Source of the DNA: Actinomycetes bacterium
GTDB lineage: Bacteria > Actinomycetota > Actinomycetes > S36-B12
Assembly: GCA_024641635.1 (NCBI GenBank)
Contig: JAHECS010000027.1
Span: forward strand, 1 to 43,017
DNA length: 43,017 bases
Direction: 5' to 3'
The position numbers were made by a program, and so were the translations under genes. The notes under the pieces were generated by a model. The model did not search any database, was not told the DNA's origin, and saw only the letters and a list, made by a program, of their open reading frames with translations. Below are positions 1 through 23,227 of this stretch, one piece after another. The first letter of the stretch is position 1, and the number at the start of each line of letters is the position of its first letter.

Positions 1-123
1 CCGCTGGTGACCGCCTTCGACTTGGCGGACTGGGAGCAGGCCTTCGCCGCGGTCGAGCGGCGTGAGGTCGTCAAGGCGGTCCTGACGCCGGGACCGGAAT
101 CCGACCTGGACCTCTGCACGTGA
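1..123 (+). CDS. C-terminal end of a zinc-type (MDR) alcohol/polyol dehydrogenase, partial
   Basis: Only the last 40 residues are in the window; the gene begins upstream. The tail has the pattern seen at the end of medium-chain zinc alcohol/sorbitol/threonine dehydrogenases: a short 'lvtaFdLadwEqAFaAver' helix, then a 'vvKAVLTP' strand, then a few disordered residues. In that family this segment closes the catalytic domain after the Rossmann fold. The TGA at 121-123 overlaps the GTG of the next gene, so the two are probably translationally coupled. The substrate cannot be read from this fragment. The family call rests on one short pattern and is moderate. Confidence 0.55.
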   Translation, partial: PLVTAFDLADWEQAFAAVERREVVKAVLTPGPESDLDLCT

Positions 124-644
124 GCAGACCTGCACGGATTCTGCTGCTCGGGATGATGGGGGCCGGTAAGTCCACGGTGGGCGACCTCCTCAGCGCTCGT
201 CTGGACTGGCCGCACGTGGACAACGACACCGCACTCGAGGAGCTGTCGGGACTGTCGCGCGCTGAACTCGCCCTCCTGCCCGTCGACCGCCTGCACAGTC
301 TCGAGGCCGAGCATGCGAGACGCATGTGCGACGCGGACCCGCCCCTGATCGCGGGTGTCGCGGCATCGGTGGCCGACGACCCAGCCGTGATGGACCTCCT
401 GGCTAGCTCCGGATTCTGCGTCTACCTGGCGCTCACCGCCGAATCGGCTCTCACCCGGGTCGGGAAGGAGGGCGTTGGTCGGCAGGTCCTCGACGGCGGC
501 GGCGCGGCCACCACCTTGGGTGAGCGGTTCAGCAGGCGGGACCCGGTCTTCCGTTCGCTCGCGGCCCTTGTGGTGGACGCGAGTCGGCCGCCCGAGGAGA
601 GCAGCGACCGGATCGTCGACGCGTGGACGGCATGGTCGTCCTGA
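120..644 (+). CDS. Shikimate-kinase-like P-loop kinase, divergent
   Basis: 174 residues, the usual size for the shikimate kinase/gluconate kinase fold. The Walker A loop GMMGAGKST is at residues 11-19, followed by a helix and an acidic segment (DNDTALEE) at the place where shikimate kinases carry their substrate-contact Asp. An [10 protein letters not shown] segment near residue 138 looks like the lid arginine and the helix after it. The Gly-Gly-Gly shikimate-binding loop of AroK is not recognisable: the equivalent strand reads [13 protein letters not shown]. The protein is therefore probably not the housekeeping AroK and may phosphorylate another small alcohol or sugar acid. The GTG start overlaps the dehydrogenase stop (GTGA), so a shared pathway with that polyol-type dehydrogenase is plausible but unproven. 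Confidence 0.75.
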
Positions 645-700
645 GGTGTGTCTTCGACTCCGGCGGAGCCCTCGGGTGGAACATGCTCTGAGCTCAGACC

Positions 701-1205
701 GGCCGGACCCTTGTTCGTGGCGAGGTGTTCGAGTGCCTCGTCGATGAGCACGACGTCCGCGTACTTCGCATCCATGTCGATCAGACTCCGCTCGTGGGCT
801 GCCAAGCTGCGGTCACCCACTGCCTCGCGCACGACCATGGGTCGGAAGCCATATTGGACGGCGGCCACGACCGTGGCGCGCACACACCCGCTCGTCGTGC
901 AGCCGGACCGCGATCGCTGCCTCGTAGTTGCCCGTTCGCAGGTCCCTCATCCCGTTGATCTTCTCTGCCCAGAGGCCAGCGTCGAGAGCGTCAGGCTCGT
1001 CGTGGCCGAAGGCGACGAGGAACACCGGGATGTCGGCGGCCCTGGCGGCCGACCACAGGCGGACGGTCTGCGCGATCGGCTCGCGGACATCGACCCCCAT
1101 GGGAAGGTCCGGATTCGTGAAGGCATTGACGAAGTCGATGACGAGCAGTGCCGACCTGGATCCCCACCTCAGCCTCTTGCCGAATCCCCTCCTGCTGGAG
1201 AAGTC
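701..1205 (-). pseudogene. Decayed isochorismatase-family cysteine amidohydrolase (N-carbamoylsarcosine amidase type)
   Basis: Two reading frames on the minus strand together spell an isochorismatase-like hydrolase. The first (about 1205 down to 909) gives GFGKRLRWGSRSALLVIDF with the catalytic Asp, then helices up to [14 protein letters not shown]. The second (about 904 down to 710) gives [20 protein letters not shown], with the nucleophile Cys at 886-884, then [15 protein letters not shown] and [10 protein letters not shown], all hallmark blocks. Between them about 4 extra bases (908-905) shift the frame, and roughly 30 residues that carry the catalytic Lys (the KxxASAFFGT block) are missing. 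The distal frame has no stop at the expected end and runs on into the antisense of the upstream kinase gene. Both defects argue for a dead gene. A sequencing error could explain the frameshift but not the missing block. Confidence 0.8.
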
Positions 1206-1377
1206 GCTGGCGCTCTCGGCCTTGCCGCAGCGGCCTTCGAGGCCGCGGGACCTCGGTTCCACGCCCTGTCTGGCGCAGAGACAAGCTCAGGTTCGCGGTT
1301 TGGCAGGCGCCGCGGAGGCTCCGCCGAGAAGATGGGACGCCCACGTGTGCGTCGCAAGACCGACTGCGGAGGATGTC

Positions 1378-2175
1378 ATGAAGGACACGCACGTTCGATT
1401 CCGCGTGGGGGTCGTCGGGGTCGGGGTCATCGGCGCGGCCGTTACGGAATCCTTGCTGACCGGCCCGCAAGCCGATGCGATCGACGTGGCGCTCTCGCCC
1501 CGCTCGACGGAACTGACGGCGCAGCTGTCCGAACGCTTCGAGACAGCGCACGCCTGCGCGAGCAATCAAGAGGTCGTCGATCGCTCGGACGTCGTGATCG
1601 TCGCGGTGCGTCCTGAGCATGTCCTCGAGGTCTGCCGGCCTCTCGCCTTTCGCGAGGAGCAGGTCGTCGTCAGTCTCGCCGCCGGGTGGCCGGCGTCGAC
1701 CCTTGCCCCTTTGGTGACCCCGGCCGTGAGCGTCTGCCAGCTCATCCCCCTCCCCATGATCAGGCTGCACAGCGGACCGATCGTCCTGCAACCGAGGGTC
1801 GAGGTGGTGGAGCGCTTGTTCCGGGGCTGCGGGCGGTTGGTCGCGCTCGAAGAGGAGTCGGACGTCATCACTCTGAGTTGTGCGTCGGCCTCGATGTCGA
1901 CCTTCTTCGCCTTGCAGGCGCGAATAGTCGAGTGGGTGACGAGTCAGGGCGTGGGCATCGACAGTGCGAAGGAGTACGTCCAGGAGCTGTTCGTCGGCTT
2001 GGCCCACGAGATGACCGCAATCCCGGCGGACGACCTCGCCGGCGTCGTGCGGGCGCACGAGACTCCCGGCGGATTGAACGAGCAGGTCCGCGAAGCGCTC
2101 GATGCCATGGGCGCATTCGACGTCGTTGCCAGGCAACTGGACCTCATGAGGCGTGAGCGACTGCAGCACACGTAG
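1378..2175 (+). CDS. Pyrroline-5-carboxylate reductase-like NAD(P)-dependent oxidoreductase
   Basis: 265 residues. The N-terminal Rossmann motif GVGVIG is at 14-19, followed by a ProC-like layout: VVIVAVRPEHVLEV (strand and helix of the dinucleotide domain), VVSLAAGWP, then a C-terminal all-helical dimerisation domain with the 'HEMTAIPADDLAGVVRAHETPGGLNEQ' region, corresponding to the ProC 'TSPGGTT' substrate loop but reading ETPGGLNEQ. The ATG at 1378 is chosen because GGAGGA lies 6-11 bases upstream and because the same frame continues upstream without coding character. The divergent substrate loop suggests a paralogue rather than the main proline-biosynthetic ProC. It is downstream of a decayed amidohydrolase and ends in a hairpin facing the convergent thioredoxin-like gene. 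Confidence 0.82.
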   Translation: MKDTHVRFRVGVVGVGVIGAAVTESLLTGPQADAIDVALSPRSTELTAQLSERFETAHACASNQEVVDRSDVVIVAVRPEHVLEVCRPLAFREEQVVVSLAAGWPASTLAPLVTPAVSVCQLIPLPMIRLHSGPIVLQPRVEVVERLFRGCGRLVALEEESDVITLSCASASMSTFFALQARIVEWVTSQGVGIDSAKEYVQELFVGLAHEMTAIPADDLAGVVRAHETPGGLNEQVREALDAMGAFDVVARQLDLMRRERLQHT

Positions 2176-2210
2176 CGTCGCGGAAGATCGAGGAGACCCG
2201 ACCCGGGCAG

Positions 2211-2228
2211 CGCCGGCGAAAGCCGGCG
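2211..2228. terminator. Intergenic hairpin with GAAA tetraloop between convergent genes
   Basis: CGCCGGC at 2211-2217 and GCCGGCG at 2222-2228 pair perfectly around a GAAA tetraloop. The hairpin lies 35 bases after the reductase stop and 20 bases beyond the stop of the convergent thioredoxin-like gene, where a bidirectional terminator would be expected. No T-run follows on either strand, which is common in high-GC actinobacteria, so the terminator role is inferred from position and structure. Confidence 0.5.
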
Positions 2229-2248
2229 AGACGCGTACCGCTAAGGCG

Positions 2249-2560
2249 TCACTCCCGGCCGCCATGCGGCGAGGTCAAGGCGTCGCGCAACTGGTCGATG
2301 GCAGGGCAGCCCGACGCACCCTCCGGCGTCGCGTACAGGCGGCAAGCCCAACCCGCATTGCCGGATGGGTCGGTGAACGGATCGATGCCGTCGATCAGGA
2401 GGGTTGGCGAGCCGGCGAATCCGAGCAGTTCGCCCTCCTCGGGGGAACTCACCTCACGTGCCGTCCAGACGAACCCCAGCTCCTTCGCGAGCGTGTCGAG
2501 TCGCTGCCCCAGCACGACCGCGCTGGGGCAGCCCGCGAAGGACAGCATCTGGACCTGCAC
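2249..2560 (-). CDS. Small thioredoxin-fold protein with a GCPS active-site-like motif
   Basis: 103 residues. An N-terminal beta strand leads into SFAGCPSAVV, so one cysteine sits at the place of the thioredoxin CxxC and the second position is Ser or Ala. A strand-helix section follows and then the conserved-looking FAGSPTLLIDGIDPF, which contains the cis-Pro loop of the fold. The C-terminal half has WACRLYATPEGASGCPAIDQL, a pattern of small alkylmercury-lyase/thioredoxin-like proteins common in actinobacteria. With a single Cys at the active site it would be a binding or monothiol exchange protein rather than a dithiol reductase. The GTG at 2560 lies 7 bases after a GATACT -10 box, so the transcript is probably leaderless; an internal ATG at codon 5 is the alternative start. 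Confidence 0.72.
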   Translation of the reverse strand: MQVQMLSFAGCPSAVVLGQRLDTLAKELGFVWTAREVSSPEEGELLGFAGSPTLLIDGIDPFTDPSGNAGWACRLYATPEGASGCPAIDQLRDALTSPHGGRE

Positions 2561-2567
2561 GTGGACG

Positions 2568-2573
2568 AGTATC
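2568..2573 (-). promoter_or_regulatory. -10 box (GATACT) abutting the thioredoxin-like gene start
   Basis: On the minus strand GATACT is separated from the GTG at 2560 by 7 bases, the distance expected if transcription starts at the start codon. I see no good -35 hexamer at 16-18 bases. The same arrangement recurs in front of seven other genes in this window. Confidence 0.45.
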
Positions 2574-2653
2574 GCCTAGTGACGACAGGAGTCATGTCAT
2601 GGTCGTTGCGGGCAGTCCGACCTGGGCCGACAAGGGGGCCGGGACAAGGCGCT

Positions 2654-3481
2654 CTATCGGTCCGTTCCGTGTTGGGCGGGCTCTGGCGTCGGATCCTCAT
2701 GCATCACACAGCGACCCCCGCCCAGGGCCTTCGCCTCGTACATGGCTGCATCTGCAGCACCGATCACGGCGTCAGGCGTGGTCCGTTGTGCCGATCCGAT
2801 CACGAGTCCGATGCTGACCGTGATGGGACGGCCCTCGCCGTCCTTGACGCCCCTCTCGCGTAGCGATGCGTGCAGGCGGGTGGCGAGCGCCAGCGCATCG
2901 TCCGTTGACGACACCTGGTCGAGGAGCACGACGAACTCGTCTCCGCCCACGCGGGCTGCGGTGTCCCCCGACCGCAGGACGTTCCGGATGGCCTCGGCGA
3001 CACTGACGAGGAGACGGTCGCCGCCCGCGTGACCTTCGAGGTCGTTGACGTGCTTGAAGCCGTCGATGTCGAGGTAGAGGAGGGCGAACGGGTCTGCCCT
3101 GCGATCCGCCAGTCGTAGTCGATGCGCGAGCCGGTCCCACAGGAGGACGCGGTTGCCCAGCCCCGTGAGCGGGTCGTGCAACGAACGACGCTCGAGCTCG
3201 GCATTCGCGGCCTCGAGCTCCTGGGTTCGCTCGGCCACCCGCTCCTCCAGCTCTCCCATGGCCGCCGCCAGTTCCTCGCTGAGGAAGTTGACCCCCGCGG
3301 CCAGGGCGTCCTTCATGTTCCCCTCCGCGCTGACGTAGGCGCGGGCGTCCCAATGCCCTGCGGCGATCTCGGTGATCACTCTGACGATCTCCTCGGCGCG
3401 CTCGTCCCAGTCGTCAGGCCGCCCTGACCTGGCCGGCGAATCGTGAGCCGGCTCGTCTAGGGGCGTTCCAGGAGGCGTCAT
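2654..3481 (-). CDS. Soluble GGDEF diguanylate cyclase
   Basis: 275 residues from the ATG at 3481, which overlaps the TGA of the upstream STAS-like gene as ATGA and so fixes the start. Residues 28-66 look like a HAMP-type or short helical segment (ITEIAAGHWDARA), followed by a coiled coil at about 68-100 (heptad-rich ELEERVAERTQELEAANAELE) that runs straight into the cyclase signature SLHDPLTGLGNR. The active-site loop GGDEF is at 179-183, with the product-inhibition I-site RSGD at 170-173, exactly five residues before it. Both are intact, so it should make cyclic di-GMP from two GTP and be feedback-inhibited. It has no transmembrane segment or recognised ligand-binding sensor domain, so control probably comes through the coiled coil and the coupled STAS-like protein. 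Confidence 0.93.
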   Translation of the reverse strand: MTPPGTPLDEPAHDSPARSGRPDDWDERAEEIVRVITEIAAGHWDARAYVSAEGNMKDALAAGVNFLSEELAAAMGELEERVAERTQELEAANAELERRSLHDPLTGLGNRVLLWDRLAHRLRLADRRADPFALLYLDIDGFKHVNDLEGHAGGDRLLVSVAEAIRNVLRSGDTAARVGGDEFVVLLDQVSSTDDALALATRLHASLRERGVKDGEGRPITVSIGLVIGSAQRTTPDAVIGAADAAMYEAKALGGGRCVMHEDPTPEPAQHGTDR

Positions 3482-3864
3482 TCGGAGCGCTCCAGGAGCC
3501 ACGCGACGGCATCGTCCTGCGAGGCGAACAGGCGGATCGGCACTGTCGGTCTAGCCGCGGCCAGGAAGACGTTGCCCATGAGCCGACTCACGGGAGTCGT
3601 GGCGATGAGAGCGACTGCGGAGATGAGCCCCTCGCTGCGTTGGAACTGAAGGCGAGCCTGCCGGTCAATCGGCCCCAGCCCGCGCGTGTCGACGAGCAGG
3701 GGGATGCGTCGACCCTCCCCGAGAGCAGCGAGGGCGTCGGTCGCGGCCTGTGCCTCCGTGAGGCCCGCAGAGATCCCGGGCGTCCACTGCAGCGTGGCGA
3801 TGCCGTCGACTCTGATCCACAGTCGAAAGAAGGGGCTCACGAATTCGACGGGATCAGTGTCCAT
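3478..3864 (-). CDS. STAS/SpoIIAA-like domain protein coupled to the diguanylate cyclase
   Basis: 128 residues. Alternating strands and helices with LLVDTRGLGPIDRQAR, SAVALIATTPVSRLMGN and a C-terminal RLFASQDDAVAWL helix match small SpoIIAA/STAS-like proteins found in actinobacteria. In true anti-sigma antagonists a phosphorylatable Ser would sit near the VDTRGL strand; I do not see a clear one. I choose the ATG at 3864 because GGGAG lies 6 bases upstream; an in-frame ATG at 3870 would overlap that site. The stop overlaps the GGDEF start by 4 bases (ATGA), implying co-translation and probably a physical partnership, such as sensing or tethering for the membrane-less cyclase. The function is inferred only from fold and neighbour. 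Confidence 0.7.
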   Translation of the reverse strand: MDTDPVEFVSPFFRLWIRVDGIATLQWTPGISAGLTEAQAATDALAALGEGRRIPLLVDTRGLGPIDRQARLQFQRSEGLISAVALIATTPVSRLMGNVFLAAARPTVPIRLFASQDDAVAWLLERSE

Positions 3865-4006
3865 GGCCATCTCCCATCGAGGCGCGGCTACCCGCGATTG
3901 TGTCAGCCGGTGTCTCCTGAAGCCCGACGCAGCGAGCGCCGAGAGTCGGCTGGTCTGGGTACGGTCCCCGGATCGACGGGCTTCTGCGAGATCGCGGCTG
4001 GCGCCC

Positions 4007-4420
4007 TCAGGCCGCCGGGCCTGTGATGTTGACGAGCCAGCTGACCCCGAAGCGGTCGACGCACATGCCGAAGGTGTCTCCCCACATCTGATTCTCGAGG
4101 GGCATCACAGTCGTTCCGCTGCTGGAAAGGCTGTCCCAGTAGCCGCGCAGCTCCTCGTCGTCGTCACCGCTGAGGCTGATCGAGATCGAGCTCCCTGACG
4201 GCTGGTCCATGCCCGGTGGGGTGTCCGAGGCCATGATCGTGAAGCCGCCAGCCGTCTCCAGCATGCCGTGCATGATCTGGTCCTCGATCGGAGTGCCGGC
4301 CTGGCCGAACTCACCGAACGTGCTCATGGCCAGCTGTCCCCCGAAGACGGCGTGATAGAACTCCAGCGCCTCGCGGGCGTTGCCGGCGAAGCTGATGTAC
4401 GGGTTGAGGCGCGATGCCAT
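4007..4420 (-). CDS. VOC-superfamily protein, PhnB/glyoxalase-like
   Basis: 137 residues from the ATG at 4420, with GGGAG 6-10 bases upstream. It opens with LNPYISFAGNAREALEFYHAVFGG and ends with WGDTFGMCVDRFGVSWLVNI, the standard start and end of PhnB-type (DUF1428/3-demethylubiquinone-like) VOC proteins made of two beta-alpha-beta-beta-beta units. Such proteins bind a divalent metal or small ligand in a beta-barrel pocket; many have no known substrate. Nothing in the neighbourhood points to one. It is divergently transcribed from the large unknown gene at 4565 and has its own promoter at 4452-4480. Confidence 0.88.
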   Translation of the reverse strand: MASRLNPYISFAGNAREALEFYHAVFGGQLAMSTFGEFGQAGTPIEDQIMHGMLETAGGFTIMASDTPPGMDQPSGSSISISLSGDDDEELRGYWDSLSSSGTTVMPLENQMWGDTFGMCVDRFGVSWLVNITGPAA

Positions 4421-4451
4421 GTCGGCTCCCTGTCTGGTGGCTGTGCTGCGG

Positions 4452-4480
4452 AGCCTAGGGAGCCCCCGCAGCCAGGTAAA
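4452..4480 (-). promoter_or_regulatory. Promoter of the VOC gene
   Basis: On the minus strand TTTACC (4480-4475) and TAGGCT (4457-4452) are separated by exactly 17 bases, matching sigma-70-type spacing, with a leader of about 25-30 bases that contains the GGGAG ribosome site. The hexamers are 4/6 and 3/6 matches to consensus, but TANNNT is the usual actinobacterial -10. Confidence 0.5.
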
Positions 4481-4564
4481 GGGATCGCCGTTACGCACCG
4501 AGGCGCGACGACTGCTGTTCGCCATTCGTGGATGATGGTCAACAGCCACGTCACAGGAGCCTCC

Positions 4565-7500
4565 ATGAACATGCACGACTCTGATCCGGTCTCGGCCGGC
4601 GTACCCGGCGGCGACGGCTTCGTCGATCTCCGCGGTCGGCGCTTCTACCGGATCGGCGACTACGGCCGCCTCGAGCCGTTCTTCATGACGGTGGTGGGAG
4701 CCGGCGACGCCTGGCTCTTCATCTCGAGTTCCGGGGGGCTCACGGCCGGCCGCCAGCAACCCGAATCCGCGCTCTTCCCGTACTACACGGACGACAAGGT
4801 CAGCGAGAGCGCCGGGGGAACCGGAGGGCTGAGCCTCCTGCGCGTTCGCCTCCCCGGGACCCGCGACGTTCTCTGGGAGCCCTTCCTGCTCGGTCGGCCA
4901 GCGACGCTCGGGGCCAGCCGGAACCTGTACAAGGATGTCGCCGGCTCGGCGCTGGTCTTCGAGGAGGAGGTCGCTGACCTAGGACTCCGCCTTCGGGTCA
5001 CGTGGCAGACGTCGAACCGATTCGGGATCGTGCGCACCTGCGAACTGACCAATATCGGTGACGAGAGCCGGGAGGTGGAGTTCGTCGACGGTTTCGTCAA
5101 CCTCCTTCCCGCGGGTGTGGGCGTCGCCGTCCAGAACACCCTGAGCAACCTCCTCGACGCCTACAAGCGCTCCGAGGTCGACACGACCAGTGGACTCGGC
5201 ATGTACTGGCTGAGTTCCAGGCTCACCGACCTCGCTGAGCCGAGCGAGTCGCTGCACGCCAATGTCGCCTGGCATGTCGGCCTGGGTGACGTCCAACACC
5301 TGGCGTCGTCCAGGCAGCTCACCACCTTCCGGCACGGCGGGGACGTCGTCGAGGAGCGGGACGTCCGGGGTGAGAGGGGCGCCTACCTCGTGCACACCTC
5401 TGTCCGACTCGCGCCGGCGGAGAGCAAGCACTGGAGCGTTGTCGGCGACGTTGAGCTGGACGCGGCGGACGTCGTCGGACTGCGGCGACTGCTGGAGAGA
5501 CCATCCGACCTCGCGTCGGAGCTGGAGGCGGAGTTGCTCGCCGACAGCGCTCAACTGGAGCGAATCGTGGCTTCCGTCGATGGCCTGCAGCGCAGCGGCG
5601 ACGAGCTGGCGACCGCACATCACCTGGCGAACGCCCTCTTCAACGTCATGCGCGGAGGCGTCCCAGCCGACGGATACGAGATCGATGGGAGCGACGTGCG
5701 CGCGTTCATCGAGGAGCGCAGCCCACAGACTGCGCAACGCTGCACCGAGTTCCTCGACGCTCTTCCGGCTCACCTGCGCGCGGATGCGTTGGTCGAGCGA
5801 GCGCGCGACAGCGCCGACCCGGATCTCGTGCGCCTGGCTCTCGAGTACCTGCCGCTGACGTTCAGTCGTCGCCACGGCGACCCGTCGCGTCCGTGGAACG
5901 CCTTCCGCATCGACCTTCGCGATGAGCTCGGGAACCCCCGGCTGAGCTTCCAGGGGAACTGGCGGGACATCTTCCAGAACTGGGAGGCCATGGCGTGGTC
6001 GTTCCCTGAGTACCTGGAATCGATGGTGGCGGTCTTCGTGAACGCGACGACAGCTGACGGCTACAACCCCTACCGGATCTCCCGCTCCGGGGTGGACTGG
6101 GAGGTCCCGGAGCCGGACAACCCATGGGCGAACATCGGGTACTGGAGCGACCACCAGATCATCTACCTGCTGAGGCTTCTGGAGACGTCTCACCGCTTCC
6201 ACCCGGGGCGACTGCGCGAACTCGTGGGCGCGGAGATCTTCACGCATGCGGACGTGCCCTACCGGCTGGCCTCCTACGAGCGGACACTGCGCGACCCGCG
6301 CAGCACCGTGGCATTCGACGACGACCGTGCGGCGCTCATCCGTGGTCGAGAGGGCGCCATGGGCGCGGACGGCCGTCTCGTCGTCGGACCAGATGGCGAC
6401 CTGCTTCGGGTCACCCTCGCGGAGAAGCTGCTGCTCCTGCTGCTGGCCAAGCTCGTCAACTTCGTGCCGGACGGCGGCATCTGGATGAACACCCAGCGTC
6501 CGGAGTGGAACGACGCCAACAACGCGCTGGTCGGCTGGGGCCTGTCGGTTGTCACGCTCGCGCAACTGCGCCGCTATGTCGGGTTCGTCAAGGACCTCAT
6601 CGCCGAGGACGTGCGGGTGACGGAGGAGCTGGCGGAGCTGCTCGATGCCGTGACCGACACCCTCGACGCGCACGTGCCGCAGCTGGAGGCGGGCTTCAGC
6701 GACGAGACGCGGCGCACCCTTATGGACGGGCTCGGCGCCGCGGGCACCGACTACCGGGAGCGGGTGTACCAAGGGTTCAGCGGTGGACGTACGGTCGTGG
6801 CGGCGGCTCAGGTCCACCGGCTCCTCGACGCAGCGCAGCAGTACGTGGAGGCGAGCCTGCGCTCAAACGAGCGGGACGACGCGCTGTTCCACTCCTACAA
6901 CCTCCTCGACCTGTCGCACGGTGCCGCGGCGATACGCCGGCTGCCCGTCATGCTCGAAGGCCAGGTGGCCGTGCTGTCGAGCGGCCAGCTGACCGCGGCG
7001 CAGTCGTTGGCGCTGCTGGCGGCACTGCGCGCCAGCCCCCTGTACCGGCACGACCAGCACAGCTACCTGCTCTACCCGGACAAGGACCTCGCGGGATTCC
7101 TGGATCGGAACCGCTTCACGGCCGACAGGGCGGACAACTGCGCGATCGTCACTGCGTTGCTCGACCAGGGGGATGCACGCCTGGTTGTCCGTGATGTGAG
7201 CGGTGATCTCCACTTCGCTGCCGGCATCCGACACGCCCGGGACGTCGAGGCGGTGCTCGACGCACTGACGGATGACCCGGACCTCGGCGACCTGGCCCGA
7301 GAGGGCCGGTCCGAGCTGTTGGAGATCTTCGGCGAGGTGTTCAACCATGCCGAGTTCACCGGCCGCTCCGGATCGTTCTTCGCCTACGAGGGCCTGGGCT
7401 CCATCTACTGGCACATGGTGTCCAAGCTCCTCCTCGCGGTGCAGGAGACCCTCGAGAGGGCCGTGGCCGCCGACGAGGATGAGGAACTGGTGGCAGCGCT

Positions 7501-8002
7501 CGTCGATGCCTACGAGGACATCCGCGCCGGCCTCGGCTACTGCAAGCCGGCCGAGGTGTACGGGGCCTTCCCGACCGATCCGTACTCGCACACTCCTGCG
7601 GGCCGCGGCGCCAAGCAGCCGGGGATGACCGGCCAGGTGAAGGAGGAGGTGCTCACCAGGCTCGGCGAGCTCGGGGTTCGCGTCGAGGACGGGTGCATCG
7701 TGGTCCACCCGATCCACCTTCGAGCATCCGAGTGGCTTCTGGCCGCGTCGACGTTCGAGTACATCGATGTCCGGGGGAGCCTGGAACATCTTGACCTTCC
7801 TGCAGGTTCGCTCGCCTTCACGTTCTGCCAGGTGCCGGTCGTCTACCACCAGTCCGGCACTCTCACGGTGCGAGTGCACCAGACTGACGGAACCGTCGTG
7901 GAGTGCTCGGGCGGGCGCGTCCCGCCGTACGTGAGTGCCGGCGTGTTCGGCCGGCGAGGACGGACGCGCCTGATCGAGGTGCACACGCCCGCGTCTGGGT
8001 GA
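4565..8002 (+). CDS. Large conserved-looking protein of unknown function, possibly (alpha/alpha)6 carbohydrate-active
   Basis: 1145 residues from the ATG at 4565, with AGGAG 6-10 bases before it; the longer frame upstream is antisense to the VOC gene. I do not recognise a named family. The first ~400 residues are strand-rich, as in the N-terminal beta-sandwich of GH94/GH65-type enzymes (GRRFYRIGDYGRLEPFF, LFPYYTDDKV, LRVTWQTSNRF). The middle is helical, with NPRLSFQGNWRDIFQNWEA near 460, WMNTQRPEWNDANNALVG near 640-654 (E647-W-N-D650, resembling the catalytic DWND of GH94) and YEGLGSIYWHM at 941-951. Near the end come FPTDPYSHTPAG and GAKQPGMTGQVKEE, and a final beta domain. No signal peptide or membrane segment is visible, so it is probably cytoplasmic. 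The cellobiose phosphorylase two genes away supports a carbohydrate role, but the reaction is unknown. Confidence 0.85.
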   Translation: MNMHDSDPVSAGVPGGDGFVDLRGRRFYRIGDYGRLEPFFMTVVGAGDAWLFISSSGGLTAGRQQPESALFPYYTDDKVSESAGGTGGLSLLRVRLPGTRDVLWEPFLLGRPATLGASRNLYKDVAGSALVFEEEVADLGLRLRVTWQTSNRFGIVRTCELTNIGDESREVEFVDGFVNLLPAGVGVAVQNTLSNLLDAYKRSEVDTTSGLGMYWLSSRLTDLAEPSESLHANVAWHVGLGDVQHLASSRQLTTFRHGGDVVEERDVRGERGAYLVHTSVRLAPAESKHWSVVGDVELDAADVVGLRRLLERPSDLASELEAELLADSAQLERIVASVDGLQRSGDELATAHHLANALFNVMRGGVPADGYEIDGSDVRAFIEERSPQTAQRCTEFLDALPAHLRADALVERARDSADPDLVRLALEYLPLTFSRRHGDPSRPWNAFRIDLRDELGNPRLSFQGNWRDIFQNWEAMAWSFPEYLESMVAVFVNATTADGYNPYRISRSGVDWEVPEPDNPWANIGYWSDHQIIYLLRLLETSHRFHPGRLRELVGAEIFTHADVPYRLASYERTLRDPRSTVAFDDDRAALIRGREGAMGADGRLVVGPDGDLLRVTLAEKLLLLLLAKLVNFVPDGGIWMNTQRPEWNDANNALVGWGLSVVTLAQLRRYVGFVKDLIAEDVRVTEELAELLDAVTDTLDAHVPQLEAGFSDETRRTLMDGLGAAGTDYRERVYQGFSGGRTVVAAAQVHRLLDAAQQYVEASLRSNERDDALFHSYNLLDLSHGAAAIRRLPVMLEGQVAVLSSGQLTAAQSLALLAALRASPLYRHDQHSYLLYPDKDLAGFLDRNRFTADRADNCAIVTALLDQGDARLVVRDVSGDLHFAAGIRHARDVEAVLDALTDDPDLGDLAREGRSELLEIFGEVFNHAEFTGRSGSFFAYEGLGSIYWHMVSKLLLAVQETLERAVAADEDEELVAALVDAYEDIRAGLGYCKPAEVYGAFPTDPYSHTPAGRGAKQPGMTGQVKEEVLTRLGELGVRVEDGCIVVHPIHLRASEWLLAASTFEYIDVRGSLEHLDLPAGSLAFTFCQVPVVYHQSGTLTVRVHQTDGTVVECSGGRVPPYVSAGVFGRRGRTRLIEVHTPASG

Positions 8003-8091
8003 GCGCCTTCGCTGGGCAGCCATCGTCAGCGCGAGACGCCCCCTCGAGATCGCTACCGTGGAGGCATAGCCCAGCGAAGGACGTGACGCCG

Positions 8092-8559
8092 ATGGCGACC
8101 ACGACGAAGGGTCAGCGACTGCCTCCCCGTTGGTTCGTTGTCTCTGCCTGGCACGTGCACCGAGCCATCTATCGGGCGACCGCCGGGAGAATGGGGTTGT
8201 GGAGGCCCCGACCCGGCAAGTGGGGTGCTCTGCGTCTCACCACGACGGGTCGGCGGACCGGGCAGGCCCGAAGCGTGATGATCGGCTACTTCGAGGACGG
8301 CCCCAACCTCGTGTCGATGGCGATGAACGGCTGGGGAGCAGGTGAACCGGCCTGGTGGCTCAACCTGCAGGCCCACCCGGACGCCGTCGTCGACCTCCGC
8401 GGGGAGCACCGCGACGTACGTGGGCGCGCAGCAGCGGGAGTCGAGCGCGAGCGGCTGTGGCAGCAGTGGCGGGAGATCGACGAGGGCCTCGACGGATTCG
8501 CCGCCCTGCGGCCGACGGAGACGGCGGTCGTCGTGCTCGAGCCCCGCGCGGTCGGGTAG
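8092..8559 (+). CDS. Deazaflavin (F420)-dependent nitroreductase family protein (Ddn-like)
   Basis: 155 residues. The fold is the small split-barrel of Ddn/FGE-type F420H2-dependent reductases: an N-terminal helix with HRAIYRATAGRMG, then LRLTTTGRRTGQARSVMIGYFEDGPNLVSMAMNGWG and EPAWWLNLQAHPDAVVDLRGE, which are the near-invariant blocks of the family. Mycobacterial members reduce quinones and nitro-drugs with reduced F420; the natural substrate here is unknown. The ATG at 8092 follows a GAAGGA site about 10 bases upstream; a GTG at 8083 in frame is too close to that site. A TACCGT -10-like box at 8054-8059 would give a leader of about 26 bases. It converges on the alkylsulfatase gene with only 25 bases between stops. 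Confidence 0.9.
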   Translation: MATTTKGQRLPPRWFVVSAWHVHRAIYRATAGRMGLWRPRPGKWGALRLTTTGRRTGQARSVMIGYFEDGPNLVSMAMNGWGAGEPAWWLNLQAHPDAVVDLRGEHRDVRGRAAAGVERERLWQQWREIDEGLDGFAALRPTETAVVVLEPRAVG

Positions 8560-8584
8560 CGCGGGCCGATGCCGTCGTGACCGC

Positions 8585-10573
8585 TCAGCCCCCGGAGGAG
8601 TCCGCCAGAGGGTCCTGCACGAACGGGTCTGCGTCGCGATCCGCCGAGTCCCCTGCCGTGCCGGGCATGATCTCGAAGCCCAGCTCGAAGTGCGTCAACA
8701 GCCCGGCGAGGGTCTGCAGGACGCCGGCGTCGCCGTCGAGCGTCGCGGTGCCGTCGGCGATCTGCTGAAGGAGGGGGGCGGTTCCGATCATCGCCCGCTC
8801 GAGGTCGGATCGGTTGATCGTGATCGAGAGGTCCGCATCGTCGGCGAGGAAGCCCGCGAGGTTGGTCAGGGCCCCGTTGCTCAGCTCGACCACGAACGTC
8901 TCGTCCGTGTCGGGCGTGACCAGGTTGACGACGAACGCCTCACCCTCGGACCGGACGGGGTCCAGGCGGATGCCGAGGTAGTCGAGGAACTGGCTGGTCG
9001 ACAGCGCACTGATGAGATCCGGTCCGGTGGTCGATGGCGTGACCCCACCCGGGATCCCTGAGCGGAGCTCGAGGGCCGCAGCGAGGAAGCTGTTGCGAAC
9101 GCTGGCGCTCTCCTGCTGGTAGCCGACCTGCTCGAAGGCATCGGCCAATAGCTGGCGTGCTTCAGCGTTGCCCGGTTCCGCGTAGACCACCTTGTTCAGG
9201 ATCTCGATCGCGAGGAGGTACGCGCCCTCGCCGAGAAGCTCGCTCGCTCGGGACACGATTGCGTCGGCGCCGCCCATCATCTCCACGTACAGCGGTGCCG
9301 AATCACGTGGGGACAGGGGGATGAGTGTTGCCGGGTTGCCGTCCCAGTACCCGATGTACCGGTTGATGACCGCCCGCGAGTTGTGCGCCACCGAGCCGTG
9401 GTAGCTGCGTGCCGCCCACCTCTGGGCGAGGCTGTCAGGAACCCGGTAGACGTTGTGGATCTCGTTGATCGTCACGCCCTGGTTCGCCAGGTGAAGGACG
9501 CCGTTGTTCAGGTGCGCGTAGGTGTCCCGTTGAGTTCGCATGACCTCCTGGATGCGGTCGTTGCCCCATCTCGGCCAGGTGTGCGAGGCGAACATGACCT
9601 CCGCCTCGCGACCGAAGAGGTACAGGGCCTTGTTGATCTGGCGTGACCACTCGAGGGCGTCGCGGACCAGCGCGCCCCGGAGGGTGTAGATGTTGTGGAC
9701 CGTGGCGACGATGTTCTCGGCCGCCCAGAAGGCCTTCCAGTCGGGGAACCAGGTGTTCATCTCCGCGGGTGCCTCGGTGCCCGGCGTGTTCTGGAAGATC
9801 ATCCGCACACCGTCGACGGTGAGCTCCTGGATGTCGCCGGTGATGTCGACGGTTGGCGCGATGAGTCCCGAGGTACCTGCCGCGACGCCCTTGCCGATGG
9901 CCTGGTCGACATGGCCGAACGGGCTGCGATCGAGGAGCGAGCCGTACTGGTAGAACATCCGCCGGTTCATCGCATTCCCGGCGTAGACGTTCTCCGCGAC
10001 CGCGTGCTCGAGGAATCCCGATGGTGCGATCACTGGCACCTTGCCGCTGCGCACGTCGGCCACATCGACCACCCCGTGCGCCCCGCCGAAGTGATCGCCG
10101 TGGGAGTGCGAGTAGACGACGGCGACCACGGGGCGTTCGCCCAGGTGCTCGGTGACCAGGGCGAGGGCGGCGGCCGCGGTCTCCTTCGCGGTCAGCGGGT
10201 CGAAGACGATCCAACCCGTGTCGGACCTGATGAAGCTGATGTTCGCGAGATCGAAGCCACGAACCTGGTAGATCCGGTCTGGCACGACCTCGAACAGCCC
10301 GTACTCCATGTTGAGGATCGCCTGGCGCTGCAGCGACGGGTGGATGCTGTCGAAGTCCTGCCCGTCCAGCAGGAAGTCGTAGGCGCCGATGTTCCAGGCC
10401 ACATGCCCGGCCTCGGCCATGATCTGGCGGTACTCGGGCGCAGCGAGGAAGCCGCGTCGGGCCTCCTCGACGTCGCGACGGTCCCCGAACGGCAGGGAGT
10501 CACGAGCTGATTCCTGGGCCGCCACCGTTGAGGCCGAGGGCTGCTTGCCGAGAGGGTGGAAGTGCTCTGTCAT
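8585..10573 (-). CDS. SdsA-type alkyl sulfatase (metallo-beta-lactamase fold)
   Basis: 662 residues from the ATG at 10573, preceded by GGAGGT about 9 bases upstream. The zinc motif HSHGDH is at 156-161, downstream of VFDPLTAKETAAAALAL. The rest follows the SdsA1 plan: metallo-beta-lactamase domain, then AENIVATVHNIYTLRGA and LFASHTWPRWG-type segments, a helical dimerisation region (GYWDGNPATLIPLSP, then AYLLAIEILNKVVYAEPGN) and a C-terminal SCP-2-like domain (about 540-640) that holds the alkyl chain. The enzyme releases inorganic sulfate from primary alkyl sulfates such as SDS. Bacterial SdsA1 is secreted; here no signal peptide is visible, so the enzyme may stay in the cytosol. It is divergent from cellobiose phosphorylase; no functional link is evident. 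Confidence 0.93.
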   Translation of the reverse strand: MTEHFHPLGKQPSASTVAAQESARDSLPFGDRRDVEEARRGFLAAPEYRQIMAEAGHVAWNIGAYDFLLDGQDFDSIHPSLQRQAILNMEYGLFEVVPDRIYQVRGFDLANISFIRSDTGWIVFDPLTAKETAAAALALVTEHLGERPVVAVVYSHSHGDHFGGAHGVVDVADVRSGKVPVIAPSGFLEHAVAENVYAGNAMNRRMFYQYGSLLDRSPFGHVDQAIGKGVAAGTSGLIAPTVDITGDIQELTVDGVRMIFQNTPGTEAPAEMNTWFPDWKAFWAAENIVATVHNIYTLRGALVRDALEWSRQINKALYLFGREAEVMFASHTWPRWGNDRIQEVMRTQRDTYAHLNNGVLHLANQGVTINEIHNVYRVPDSLAQRWAARSYHGSVAHNSRAVINRYIGYWDGNPATLIPLSPRDSAPLYVEMMGGADAIVSRASELLGEGAYLLAIEILNKVVYAEPGNAEARQLLADAFEQVGYQQESASVRNSFLAAALELRSGIPGGVTPSTTGPDLISALSTSQFLDYLGIRLDPVRSEGEAFVVNLVTPDTDETFVVELSNGALTNLAGFLADDADLSITINRSDLERAMIGTAPLLQQIADGTATLDGDAGVLQTLAGLLTHFELGFEIMPGTAGDSADRDADPFVQDPLADSSGG

Positions 10574-10763
10574 CTGTCGACCTCCGTCTGCGAGACCGTG
10601 ACCTGCTGCCACTCGGTGTCCCTGTCCGACCCTAAGCGTCGGTGACTGGCTCAGCACGCGGGCTGCCCCCATCGTCCGGGTTCGCGGGCCGGTTCCGCCG
10701 CCGGAGCGTCGATAGGCTCGAGCGGCGGGGCGCCGGGCCAGGCGCTCGCAGGGAGGACACGCC
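10574..10763. promoter_or_regulatory. Divergent promoter region of the alkylsulfatase and cellobiose phosphorylase genes
   Basis: This 190-base gap separates two divergent genes. On the plus strand TAGGCT at 10713-10718 is a plausible -10 box for the phosphorylase, leaving a leader of about 40 bases that ends in AGGGAGGA. On the minus strand TAGGGT (10634-10629) is a plausible -10 for the alkylsulfatase. I see no clear -35 hexamers and no LacI-type operator palindrome (the kind that controls cellulose genes through CelR/CebR). Confidence 0.35.
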
Positions 10764-13232
10764 ATGCGGTTCGGTCACTTCGATGACGAGGCCCGCGAGT
10801 ACGTCATCACCACGCCGCGCACGCCGTATCCGTGGATCAACTACCTCGGCTCTGAGGGGTTCTTCTCGCTGCTGTCCCACCAGGCGGGCGGCTACAGCTT
10901 CTATCGCGATCCGCGCCTGCGCCGGCTGACCCGGTACCGCTACAACAACCTCCCGAACGACGCGGGTGGCCGATACCTCTACGTGAATGACGGCGGAGAT
11001 GTCTGGACGCCCTCGTGGTTGCCGGTGAAGGCGGACCTGGACCACTTCGAGGCACGGCACGGCCTGGGGTACTCGAGGATCACGGGGGAGCGGAACGGGA
11101 TCTCGGTGTCGACGACGTTCTTCGTGCCGCTTGGTGAGAACGCCGAGGTGCAGCGGATCGCCGTGACGAACACGTCCGACGTCCCGAAGGACGTCACGCT
11201 GTTCTCCTTCGTCGAGTTCTGCCTCTGGAACGCGCACGACGACCAGACCAACTACCAGCGCAACCTGTCCATCGGCGAGGTGGAGGTCGAGCAGGACGGA
11301 CCGTTCGGGTCGGCGATCTACCATCGCACCGAGTACCGGGAGCGGCGCGACCACTACGCGGTCTTCGCGGTCAACGCCCGGGCCGACGGGTTCGACACCG
11401 ACCGGGACGCCTTCCTCGGCCCGTTCAACAGCATGGCCGAGGCGGCCGTCCCACGGACCGGGCGCTCAGCCGACTCGGTTGCGTCCGGCTGGTATCCCAT
11501 CGGGTCGCACTCCATCCGGGTCGATCTCGCCCCGGGCGAGACCCGGGACCTGGTCATCGTCCTCGGCTACGTCGAGAACCCTGCTGATGCGAAGTGGGAG
11601 GACGATGCCCACCAGGTGGTCGACAAGCGGCGGGCGCACGAGCTGCTGGCCCGATTCGCGAGCGCCGAGCAGGCCGATGCCGCCCTCGATGCGCTGAAGC
11701 AGCACTGGACGGCGCTGCTGTCGACCTACCGAGTCTCGAGCACTGACGACAAGCTCGACCGGATGGTCAACATCTGGAACCAGTACCAGTGCATGGTCAC
11801 CTTCAACATGTCGCGTTCGGCCTCGTACTTCGAGACCGGCATCGGCCGCGGCATGGGCTTCCGTGACTCGAACCAGGATCTGCTGGGGTTCGTCCACCTG
11901 ATCCCGGAACGCGCACGCGAGCGGATCCTCGACATCGCCGCCACGCAGCTCCCGGACGGCTCCGCGTACCACCAGTACCAGCCCCTCACCAAGCGCGGGA
12001 ACGACGACATCGGCTCGGGCTTCAACGACGATCCGCTCTGGCTCATCGCCGGGGTCGTCGCGTACGTGAAGGAGACGGGGGACTTCTCCATCCTCGACGA
12101 GCAGGTTCCGTTCGACAACGACCCGGCACAGGCGGAATCACTTCTCGAGCACCTCACCCGGTCCTTCGAGTTCACGGTTTCGCACCTGGGACCGCACGGG
12201 CTTCCGCTCATCGGTCGTGCCGACTGGAACGACTGCCTGAACCTGAACTGCTTCTCCACCACCCCGGGAGAGTCGTTCCAGACCACCGAGAACCAGGAGG
12301 GCGGCGTCGCCGAGTCCGTGTTCATCGCGGCGCAGTTCGTCCTGTACGGAGCGCAGTACGCGGAGCTGGCGCGTCGGCTGGGGAAGGTCCAGACGGCCGA
12401 TCGTGCCGACGAACTGGTCGGAGCGATGCGCCGATCGGTGCACGATCACGGGTGGGACGGCGAGTGGTTCCTGCGCGCCTATGACTACTACGGCAAGCCC
12501 GTCGGCACCGATGCCGATCCCGAGGGCAAGATCTGGATCGAGCCGCAGGGTTTCGCCGTCATGGGCGGAATGGGGGTGGAACCGGGCGACGACGGCTCGA
12601 CGCCACGGGCACTTCGTGCGCTCGACTCCGTCGAGAGATTGCTCGGGACGCCTCACGGCCTGGTCCTGCAGTACCCGGCCTATACGACGTATCAGGTTCA
12701 GCTCGGCGAGGTCTCGACGTACCCGCCCGGCTACAAGGAGAACGGCGGCATCTTCTCCCACAACAACCCGTGGGTGATCATCGCGGAGACGATGGTCGGC
12801 CGCGGTGCGCAGGCTTTCGACCACTACAAGCGGATCACCCCGGCGTACCGCGAAGGCATTTCCGACGTGCACCGCCTGGAGCCGTACGTCTACGCGCAGA
12901 TGATCGCCGGCAAGCAGGCGGTCCGTGCCGGCGAGGCGAAGAACTCGTGGCTCACGGGCACTGCCGCATGGACCTTCGTCGCCGTGTCCCAGTACCTGCT
13001 CGGCGTGCGTCCGGACTACGACGGACTGGTCGTCGATCCCCAGATCGGACCCGACGTGCCGTCGTTCACGGTGACGCGCAAGGCGCGTGGTGCGACCTAC
13101 GTCATCCGGGTGGAGAACTCGGGCGAGGCCGGGAGCCGAGGCAGGCTGGTGGTCGATGGGGCTCCCATCCCAGGCAACGTCGTCCCCTACGCCGCGGAGG
13201 GCACGACCGTTCGCGTCGATGTGACCCTGTGA
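10764..13232 (+). CDS. cbp: Cellobiose phosphorylase (GH94)
   Basis: 822 residues, the length of the Cellulomonas gilvus enzyme, and the sequence looks closely similar from the first residues ([17 protein letters not shown]) to the last. The N-terminal beta-sandwich is followed by a helical linker and the (alpha/alpha)6 barrel; the catalytic acid falls in [14 protein letters not shown], with DWND at 487-490, so D490 matches the numbering of the characterised enzyme. [13 protein letters not shown] and the phosphate-site region are present. It splits cellobiose with inorganic phosphate to alpha-glucose-1-phosphate and glucose in the cytosol, saving one ATP per disaccharide. The ATG has GGGAGGA 7-13 bases upstream. 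No ABC transporter or beta-glucosidase lies beside it, so cellobiose uptake must be encoded elsewhere. Confidence 0.96.
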
Positions 13233-13276
13233 CGCACGCGCCGCGTCCGGGGCGGCGCGGGCCCTGACGTTCCGGT

Positions 13277-13295
13277 CGCCGCTACCCGAGCGGCG
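13277..13295. terminator. Hairpin between convergent cellobiose phosphorylase and hydrolase genes
   Basis: CGCCGCT at 13277-13283 and AGCGGCG at 13289-13295 pair perfectly around ACCCG. It lies 45 bases after the phosphorylase stop and 7 bases beyond the convergent hydrolase stop, so it could end transcripts from both sides. No T-run is present. Confidence 0.4.
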
Positions 13296-13301
13296 TGCGT
13301 C

Positions 13302-14147
13302 TCAGGCGGCTCGAGGGCCTGAGGAAGGCCGGATGATCGCAACCGGAGCGCGCCCGTCGGTCCCCGCATCCGACGTCAGCGGCGAACCTGCGATGAACTC
13401 GGACACGAGGCGCGCGAGCTCGCGCGGATGGCTGAAATTGATCGCATGGGCGGCGCCCCTGATGATGGCGGCCGTCGTCGGGGCCGACCGTGCCTTGGCC
13501 AGCTGGCGTATCCGCTCGGGTGGCGGGAGCAGCGGATCACGTGTCCCGAGCACGGCCAGCAGCGGAACATCGAGACGCATGAGGGCGGTCGCCGCGTCGA
13601 AACGGGTCATGGCGACGAACAGGCGCAGTGCCTCCAGCATGCCGAAGTGCAGGTAGTCGGGAACCGCGACCGTCGCCATGGACACGGGTTCCCGAGGAGC
13701 GTCGGCGGCCAGCTGTGCCATCGCCCGGAGCAGGGGCCGGTTGTGCAGCCCTCCCGCCGGAGAGACCATCACGGCCCGCTCGATCCGGTCCGGATGCCGC
13801 TCGGCCAACGCCGCCAGGATGGCGCACCCGAGCGAGTTCCCGACGATCGTCGCTCTCTCCACGTCGACGGCGTCCAGGATCGACACCGCCATGTCCGCGA
13901 GTGCCGGAACCGTCGGCGCGTTGTCTGCGCGCGGGCTCCGACCGAAGCCGGGCAGGTCCGGAACGAAGGTCGGATGCACGTCCGCCAGCAGCTCTGCGGT
14001 GGGCACCATGTACGCGCCGGAGATGGCGAATCCGTGCAGGTGGAGGACTGGTGGCGCGCCCGTCTCCGGATCGCTGCGCCGCAGGAAGACGGGGGTTCCC
14101 CCAGCCAGCACCCATTCCTCGCGGAGCGGTGACCTGTCCTCAGGCAT
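13302..14147 (-). CDS. Alpha/beta hydrolase
   Basis: 281 residues with a complete catalytic set: the oxyanion HGF near residue 38-40, nucleophile Ser105 in GNSLG (103-107), Asp204 in LGTRDPLLPP and His234 in GAAHAINFSHP. The overall pattern (PDLPGFGRSPRAD, then VSPAGGLHNRPLL) is that of meta-cleavage-product hydrolases/haloperoxidase-like esterases. Substrate cannot be deduced. There is no signal peptide, so it is cytosolic. The ATG at 14147 lies 6 bases after a TAGAGT box, so this gene is probably translated from a leaderless transcript; no Shine-Dalgarno is visible. It is divergent from the ATPase operon. Confidence 0.92.
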   Translation of the reverse strand: MPEDRSPLREEWVLAGGTPVFLRRSDPETGAPPVLHLHGFAISGAYMVPTAELLADVHPTFVPDLPGFGRSPRADNAPTVPALADMAVSILDAVDVERATIVGNSLGCAILAALAERHPDRIERAVMVSPAGGLHNRPLLRAMAQLAADAPREPVSMATVAVPDYLHFGMLEALRLFVAMTRFDAATALMRLDVPLLAVLGTRDPLLPPPERIRQLAKARSAPTTAAIIRGAAHAINFSHPRELARLVSEFIAGSPLTSDAGTDGRAPVAIIRPSSGPRAA

Positions 14148-14153
14148 GCCCGA

Positions 14154-14159
14154 ACTCTA
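14154..14159 (-). promoter_or_regulatory. -10 box (TAGAGT) abutting the alpha/beta hydrolase start
   Basis: TAGAGT on the minus strand is followed by six bases and then the ATG at 14147, so the predicted transcript start coincides with the start codon. The hexamer 17 bases further upstream (TGGGCC) is a poor -35. Confidence 0.5.
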
Positions 14160-14315
14160 GGTGGCCGACGGGTTCCGGCCCAGCCCCCACGAGGCGGGTC
14201 GGCCGGGCGGCGGGACGAGGTGTGGTGCGCCTGGCCTGCGGACTCTGACCAAGGCTTCGACGGCAGGCACGCGCGAGAATGAGGGCAACGACTCACCCGA
14301 GGTGGGGTGGTCATT

Positions 14316-14780
14316 GTGGCTGTGCGAGACCTGCTGGATCGGTTCCGGCCCGCCGGCACACCGGGTGCCGCCGCGCCCTCGGGCGTTCCCGTGGACAGGA
14401 ACCGGCAGCGCGAGGACGAACTCATGCCGGTGCTCGTGCTCCTCGCCGAGACGGAGCAGGAGTCAGACGCGGTGCGCCGGAGCGGCCGAGATCGGGCGGA
14501 GCATGCCCGGTCTGAGGCGAACGCGGTCGCCGCCTCCACGGTGGCCACGGCCAGGGACCAGGCCGAAGCGGCCCGGGCTGAGGCGGCTGCCCGACAGCAC
14601 CGGATCAACGAAGCTCGCGCCGCGGACGAGATGAAGGCGGCCCACCGGCGTGCGGGCGAGATCGCGTCGACAGCGTCCGAACGGAGCCCGGCCGTGGTCG
14701 ACGCTGCGGTGCAGGCTGTGCGAGCGGCGCTGCTCAGCCCCCTAGGGGCGCGTTCGACGACTACCGGCGGGTCGTCATGA
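14316..14780 (+). CDS. V/A-type ATPase peripheral-stalk subunit (G/H type)
   Basis: 154 residues. After a proline-rich N-terminus the protein is almost entirely Ala/Glu/Arg/Gln helix from about residue 40 to 130 (AETEQESDAVRRSGRDRAEHARSEA and so on), a long parallel coiled coil as in subunit G/H, the stator partner of subunit E. It is the first gene of the ATPase operon and its stop overlaps subunit C (ATGA), which supports the call more than sequence alone. Start choice: GTG at 14316 is 10 bases after GAGGTGG; GTG at 14307 and 14322 are alternatives. The ~160 bases upstream hold the operon promoter; GAGAAT at 14275-14280 is the best -10 candidate but weak. Confidence 0.75.
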   Translation: MAVRDLLDRFRPAGTPGAAAPSGVPVDRNRQREDELMPVLVLLAETEQESDAVRRSGRDRAEHARSEANAVAASTVATARDQAEAARAEAAARQHRINEARAADEMKAAHRRAGEIASTASERSPAVVDAAVQAVRAALLSPLGARSTTTGGSS

Positions 14781-15703
14781 GCGCCCGTTGGGTGGCAGCC
14801 ACCGTGCGCGCACGCGCGGCCGGCCGCCGTCGACTCGGTTCCGCACAGGTTCGCGCGCTCGCGGCCTCGCCCTCCTTGGGAGAGGCGCTCGGTCGACTCA
14901 GTTCCGGCCCCTACGGGCACGACGTCCACACGGGGCAGTCGCTGCGGCAGGCGCAACACGGTGTCTCAGCCACCTTCCTCTGGGGTCAGCGGGTGCTGGC
15001 CGGGTGGCTCGGCCCCGGCGGCGGAGAGGCGATGCGTGTGCTGGCGGGATGGGCCGAGATAGCGAACGTGGACGCCCTGCTGGCCACCTACTCGGGCGAT
15101 TCCGACGTCGCCCCCGCGTACGAGTTGGGGACGCTGGCGACGGCCTGGCCACACCTGGCGACCGCGGGGAACAGGGCGGAGCTGCGTGAGTCGTTGGCAC
15201 GATCCGCGTGGGGCGATCCCGGTTCCGAGGACCAGCGCGACATCCAGGCCGCCATGCGCCTGACGTGGTGCTCCAGGGTGTCGTCGTCCGTGCCCGAGAC
15301 GGCCGACTGGGCGGCCGGTGCCGCCACTCTCGTCACGGCTCACGAGCTGATGGATCCCCTGTCACGGCCCAGCCCGGCGTTCGCCGGCCAGGTCGCACGG
15401 GCCCTCGGCCCACGTGCCGTCGCGTGCACGTCACTCGACGAGCTGCGAGAGGCCGTGCCGTCGTCCGCGAGGTGGGTTCTCGCCGACGTGGTCGGCCCCG
15501 ACGACCTCTGGCGGGCCGAGTCAGCGTGGTGGCGCCGCCTGGAGATCGACGGCGCTCGCTTGGCGCGGTCGCCGGGTTTCGACATCGTGCCCGTCGTCGG
15601 CGTCATCGCGCTGCTGGCCGTGGACGCGTGGCGCGTCCGGGCCGCGCTCGAGCTCGCTGACCGGGGAGGCCGACCGATGGAGGTCTTCGATGCCGTCGTC
15701 TGA
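14777..15703 (+). CDS. atpC: V/A-type ATP synthase subunit C (d-type central connector)
   Basis: 308 residues, nearly all helix, with repeated Trp/Leu-rich segments and no membrane span, as in subunit C/d, the funnel that sits on the K-ring and couples it to the central shaft subunits D and F. The family's C-terminal block is recognisable: a helix ending VVGVIALLAVDAWRVRAALELADRGG then EVFDAV. Sequence similarity to characterised archaeal C subunits is weak, so the call leans on size, composition, that C-terminal pattern and its fixed place before subunit I. The start overlaps the previous stop as ATGA. The C-terminal end runs past the first possible ATG of subunit I. Confidence 0.85.
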   Translation: MSARWVAATVRARAAGRRRLGSAQVRALAASPSLGEALGRLSSGPYGHDVHTGQSLRQAQHGVSATFLWGQRVLAGWLGPGGGEAMRVLAGWAEIANVDALLATYSGDSDVAPAYELGTLATAWPHLATAGNRAELRESLARSAWGDPGSEDQRDIQAAMRLTWCSRVSSSVPETADWAAGAATLVTAHELMDPLSRPSPAFAGQVARALGPRAVACTSLDELREAVPSSARWVLADVVGPDDLWRAESAWWRRLEIDGARLARSPGFDIVPVVGVIALLAVDAWRVRAALELADRGGRPMEVFDAVV

Positions 15704-15722
15704 GCGGGGCGGACCCGTACGG

Positions 15723-17590
<1,868 letters not shown>

Positions 17591-17593
17591 GCG

Positions 17594-23140: not shown

Positions 23141-23227
23141 GACTGTCTCGGGGATGCCAGGCGGTGATGCCGTCGGACTTCCTGCCTTGGAGCGCCGTCG
23201 TCGGATCGTGAGGAGTTGGTCAGGCTC

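Follow-up and report, generated by a model that had tools for sequence, protein, structure and literature searches.

Phosphorylases of clan GH-Q catalyze inverting phosphorolysis, in which the Asp residue of a Trp-Asn-Asp (WND) motif serves as the general acid and α-glucose 1-phosphate is released. Within this clan, GH149 was founded in 2018, when EgP1 from Euglena gracilis and Pro_7066 were assayed on β-1,3-gluco-oligosaccharides as β-1,3-glucan phosphorylases; the members given in the founding paper belong to Proteobacteria, Bacteroidetes, and Euglenophyceae, and gene clusters that combine ABC transporters with LacI or AraC regulators are described there (PMC5827456). The structure of a GH149 enzyme was solved in 2019 (Pro_7066, PDB 6HQ6 and 6HQ8), and W651, N652, D653, R470, D471, H959, and E951 are named as its active-site residues (PMC6771811). 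GH94 and GH161 provide a known case of two phosphorylase families arranged in tandem (PMC6484121).

The window analyzed here is a stretch of 43,017 nucleotides from an Actinomycetes bacterium (contig JAHECS010000027.1). The nearest relatives and a GC content of 0.695 likewise suggest an actinobacterial host. The initial annotation placed at 4565–8002 an unknown protein of 1145 residues, near a cellobiose phosphorylase; the coordinates, length, and motifs given for it are all present, and the GH94 gene lies two genes along. The gene and its surroundings are as follows.

4007–4420, minus strand: glyoxalase-superfamily protein, upstream of the GH149 gene (family match)
4555–4559, plus strand: AGGAG, probable ribosome-binding site, five bases 5′ of the ATG (from the sequence)
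4565–8002, plus strand: GH149 β-1,3-glucan phosphorylase gene, ATG at 4565, 1145 residues, stop codon included
8585–10765, minus strand: alkyl-sulfatase-like metallo-β-lactamase (Pfam Alkyl_sulf_dimr, Alkyl_sulf_C, and Lactamase_B)
10764–13232, plus strand: GH94 cellobiose phosphorylase, 822 residues (PDB 2CQS, 1591.5 bits over residues 1–821; Pfam GH94 catalytic and supersandwich models)

Judged from its sequence, the ORF at 4565–8002 is a real gene. A longer mechanical frame opens at a GTG at 4268, but similarity to the family begins only 19 residues into the protein read from the ATG. No promoter-like sites were found within 3500–13500. The alkyl-sulfatase-like gene sits between the two phosphorylase genes with no evident link to them. 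An assembly-wide search gave a single GH149 match, this gene, and a single GH94 match, the one in the window.

The protein matches the NCBIfam model NF058639.1, “1,3-beta-D-glucan phosphorylase, GH149 family,” at 1486 bits (residues 19–1140, profile positions 9–1132 of 1134). The model is an equivalog with a curated cut-off of 1150 bits and is the sole NCBIfam model matched; the match is not due to chance, since this score extends across nearly the full length. Among PDB sequences, Pro_7066 (6HQ6/6HQ8) is the only strong match (1053.6 bits over residues 19–1140), followed by two GH161-type entries at 66.7 bits; matches to MS2 coat proteins (E-values of 0.025 and worse) were taken as chance. 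No Pfam family, GH94 included, matched the protein at E-values up to 10, while the same library detects both GH94 models in the GH94 neighbor; for GH65 and GH15, the other families named at first, the comparison covered was this general Pfam search. The blank in Pfam may be the reason why the protein looked like an orphan, and such a blank does not point to an unknown family. The protein is a member of a described family, and its family membership, fold, and active-site residues are established in this analysis; in family and expected reaction, it is almost certainly a GH149 β-1,3-glucan (laminari-oligosaccharide) phosphorylase. The suggestion of an uncharacterized six-hairpin carbohydrate-active family thus stands as to the six-hairpin phosphorylase, which shares clan GH-Q with GH94, and falls as to “uncharacterized.” What looked like an orphan can now be placed in a named family with a solved relative, and its mechanism is well founded.

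An AlphaFold2 model built from a 40-sequence alignment (mean pLDDT 88, pTM 0.88) shows the strand-rich N-terminal part and the helical middle expected at the outset. In a Foldseek search with this model, 6HQ6 ranks first (TM-scores of 0.95/0.96), followed by GH161 (0.67/0.73) and then GH94. With a second structural aligner, the model superimposes on 6HQ8 at 2.0 Å over 1119 residues (Z-score 50.1), and this match to an (α/α)6 phosphorylase, the barrel on which the initial suggestion depended, spans residues 14–1145. The corresponding Z-scores are 32–35 for GH161, and those of the GH94-type phosphorylases in the list run from 18 to 29. Superposition of the model on 6HQ8 indicates that the GH149 architecture is present, namely, a β-sandwich, a helical linker, an (α/α)6 domain with the inserts Dom 1 and Dom 2, and a jelly roll. 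The three domains below have boundaries transferred by hand from Pro_7066.

4619–5458, plus strand: N-terminal β-sandwich, approximately residues 19–298 (strand-rich in the model; limits from PMC6771811)
5573–7672, plus strand: (α/α)6 catalytic domain with inserts Dom 1 and Dom 2, approximately residues 337–1036 (model, superposition on 6HQ8, and limits from PMC6771811)
7673–7984, plus strand: C-terminal jelly-roll domain, approximately residues 1037–1140 (model and alignment to 6HQ6)

In the sequence alignment, the seven active-site residues named in Pro_7066 map one to one onto W648, N649, D650, R467, D468, H950, and E942, respectively, and all seven are invariant across the 81 aligned sequences (80 loci plus the window protein). 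D650, the Asp of the EWND motif, is thus aligned to D653, the predicted catalytic Asp of Pro_7066; its location in a pocket is likewise predicted from this alignment to 6HQ6.

5963–5968, plus strand: R467-D468, RD motif for sugar phosphate recognition, R470-D471 in Pro_7066 (alignment, PMC6771811)
6506–6514, plus strand: W648-N649-D650, catalytic loop, D650 being the predicted catalytic residue (alignment, PMC6771811)
7388–7390, plus strand: E942, donor-site residue, E951 in Pro_7066 (alignment)
7412–7414, plus strand: H950, predicted phosphate recognition, H959 in Pro_7066 (alignment)

The blocks picked out at first as strongly constrained are LSFQGNWRDIFQNWEA (residues 460–475), WMNTQRPEWNDANN (residues 640–653, including E647, W648, N649, and D650), YEGLGSIYWHM (residues 941–951), DPYSHTPAG (residues 1005–1013), and KQPGMTGQVKEE (residues 1017–1028). 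They are indeed so: across the 81 sequences, 47 of the 62 block positions agree with the window protein at 97% or more, against 219 of 1145 in the whole protein, a contrast that is somewhat inflated because three of the six peptide patterns used to fetch the 80 relatives fall in or overlap these blocks. One pattern covers W648–D650, so that conservation there is favored by sampling, while R467, D468, E942, and H950 lie outside all six patterns.

In the proposed reaction, the β-1,3 bond at the non-reducing end of the substrate would be attacked by inorganic phosphate with inversion. Phosphate held near H950 would attack the C1 atom, D650 would protonate the leaving oxygen, and the products would be α-glucose 1-phosphate and a chain one glucose shorter. 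As expected of GH149, the substrates would be β-1,3-gluco-oligosaccharides from DP 2 upward. The enzyme is probably cytoplasmic, as no hydrophobic N-terminal stretch is seen by eye. EgP1, which belongs to the same family and is expected to catalyze the same reaction, differs in being eukaryotic and in having a predicted targeting peptide (PMC5827456), a comparison made by description.

The window protein resembles Pro_7066 in its full-length fold and its seven active-site residues, at 41–43% identity, and differs from it at the surface site that binds laminarihexaose. K831, E838, Y841, E982, E990, Y993, E994, and R1062 in Pro_7066 correspond to R822, H829, H832, E973, D981, E984, D985, and R1053, respectively; only E982 and R1062 are retained, and the two tyrosines stacking on laminarihexaose (Y841 and Y993) are absent, H832 and E984 being found instead. 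This surface site is not a defining feature of GH149, since it varies within the family and, in bacterial GH149 enzymes other than the close relatives of Pro_7066, is described as less conserved (PMC6771811).

At least 591 stretches in the genome_contigs collection encode relatives, of which 80 were kept for alignment; 54 of the tree rows, most of the 80, belong to Bacteroidota. In the tree (FastTree, local support only), the window protein groups with four loci labeled Actinomycetales (MAG) with a support of 100 among the loci kept, and this actinobacterial group nests with two Deinococcota loci and one Chloroflexota locus with a support of 97. E984 is present in four of the five actinobacterial rows among these loci, the window protein counted. 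Relatives occur on contigs labeled Actinomycetales, Chloroflexi, and Trueperaceae in addition to the groups of the founding paper, and such a wider range of taxa may supply enzymes for glucan synthesis that favor other chain lengths. In the part of the literature covered that names both GH149 and Actinobacteria, an actinobacterial GH149 is not described, and such a report may exist.

Close to the source organism, the gene is rare, with GH149 found in its own genome only among the 59 near relatives searched and among 296 genomes of the class. In the survey of the phylum, 10 of 396 genomes match, six of them over the cut-off (own genome included in both counts). Three of the matches below the cut-off (G456, G543, and G640) are pieces of 18 to 61 bits that are probably sister families, and another (G627) reaches 818 bits over profile positions 6–671 only. 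Cellobiose phosphorylase is sparse as well (three of the 59 near relatives, own genome included). Ten of 72,556 plasmid records carry a relative, 39–46% identical, and seven of these are from Vibrio. The GC contents of the GH149, alkyl-sulfatase-like, and GH94 genes are 0.679, 0.673, and 0.665, respectively; two other genes in the window have values of 0.713 and 0.714. The lower GC content and the rarity among relatives fit a recent acquisition of the GH149 gene by transfer, without proving it.

A conserved pairing of GH149 and GH94 genes was unsupported: a GH94 homologue was found in the flanks of one of the 80 loci kept, in a search of flanks up to 8 kb, some of them ended by the contig (ORFs of at least 150 residues, E-values up to 1e-15). 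In this locus (L065, Eudoraea chungangensis), the GH94 cellobiose phosphorylase at 12661–15150 near the GH149 gene is 56% identical to that of the window. The two enzymes of the window may possibly cooperate, the cellobiose phosphorylase being a partner in the use of β-glucan oligosaccharides.

The low identity to Pro_7066 means that the acceptor preference of the GH149 enzyme may differ. A GH149 enzyme that has come to prefer other acceptors, such as short or mixed β-1,3/1,4 oligosaccharides matching the cellobiose phosphorylase neighbor, is the strongest of the alternatives and is nevertheless unlikely. The replacement of the surface aromatics by H832 and E984, the recurrence of E984 in the actinobacterial rows, the nearby cellobiose phosphorylase gene, and the occurrence of both genes at L065 are consistent with such a shift. 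Against it, the donor site shows no change, variation of the surface site is known among bacterial GH149 enzymes (PMC6771811), and no cellobiose phosphorylase homologue was found in the flanks of L002, L003, L004, and L008, the closest relatives among the loci kept (L004 being cut within the gene). An extended version, equally improbable, is that a small actinobacterial GH149 subclade has lost its surface glucan site and that the organism here lives on oligosaccharides released by others, splitting β-1,3 and β-1,4 breakdown between GH149 and GH94, with the acceptor shifted to short or mixed-linkage chains.

As to the direction of the reaction, it is fairly likely that the enzyme breaks down imported oligosaccharides, yielding glucose 1-phosphate and so saving energy. 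In the flanks of relatives, 10 chosen ORFs were surveyed, of which three gave no family, among them the one that precedes the L004 gene. Binding-protein-dependent transport permeases lie upstream of the GH149 gene in L002 and L003, two of the closest relatives among the loci kept; L008 has a solute-binding protein, L009 a LacI-type regulator, and L006 a sensor-regulator hybrid in its flanks. By analogy, these flanks resemble the GH149 clusters described in PMC5827456. Among the neighbors scanned in the window, which were part of its ORFs, neither a sugar transporter nor a laminarinase was found.

In the own assembly (82 contigs, 96.9% complete, so that absences are provisional), neither GH16 nor GH3 gave a match, with 6 and 10 of 14 control genomes positive, respectively. 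GH17 was silent in the assembly and likewise in the controls, and is thus uninformative. GH1 matches lie on two contigs (C3 and C56), and GH5 gave two sub-threshold matches. One sub-threshold match to the β-1,3-glucanase family GH64 (20–22 bits against a cut-off of 27, control silent) was found on another contig (C66), in an ORF at 1–3198 on the minus strand of locus L099, which runs off the locus at 1066 residues. Its start resembles a signal peptide by eye, so that it is possibly a secreted glucanase; no PDB match was found for it.

A reaction running in the synthetic direction, or serving an internal β-1,3-glucan store rather than imported oligosaccharides, has a still smaller chance than the acceptor shift. 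The lack of GH16 and GH3 matches in the assembly and of a transporter among the scanned neighbors would suit it, while the permeases, solute-binding protein, and LacI-type regulator beside the relatives and the protein of the own genome with the sub-threshold GH64 match argue against it. Both of these alternatives are refinements compatible with the main reading, a GH149 β-1,3-glucan phosphorylase.

Membership in a sister family of clan GH-Q, GH94 or GH161, in place of GH149 is refuted by the scores and has a negligible chance: the fold and the W-N-D loop are common to them and the GH161 structures match at 67 bits and a Z-score of 35, but the GH149 match reaches 1054 bits and a Z-score of 50, Pfam gives no GH94 match even at an E-value of 10, and BLASTP against the window's own GH94 enzyme is not significant (E-value 0.32). 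The GH161 β-1,3-glucan phosphorylases (PDB 9GY9 and 9QQK) act on the same bond with a related fold, and differ in sequence (20–21% identity). The GH94 cellobiose phosphorylase from Cellvibrio gilvus (PDB 2CQS) has the clan fold in common with the GH149 protein, at a Z-score of 25; it is a close relative of the window's GH94 protein, which has its WND in RADWNDCLN.

Elsewhere in the window, family matches to subunits I, K, A, B, and D mark a V/A-type ATPase gene cluster at 15414–22182. A pyridine-nucleotide-disulfide oxidoreductase that carries a response-regulator receiver domain at its N terminus is encoded at 25048–26703, flanked by HATPase_c proteins at 23216–24964 and 26700–28088. The protein at 28104–29381 combines DinB_2 and sulfatase-modifying-factor domains, a layout also known from ergothioneine-type EgtB enzymes.
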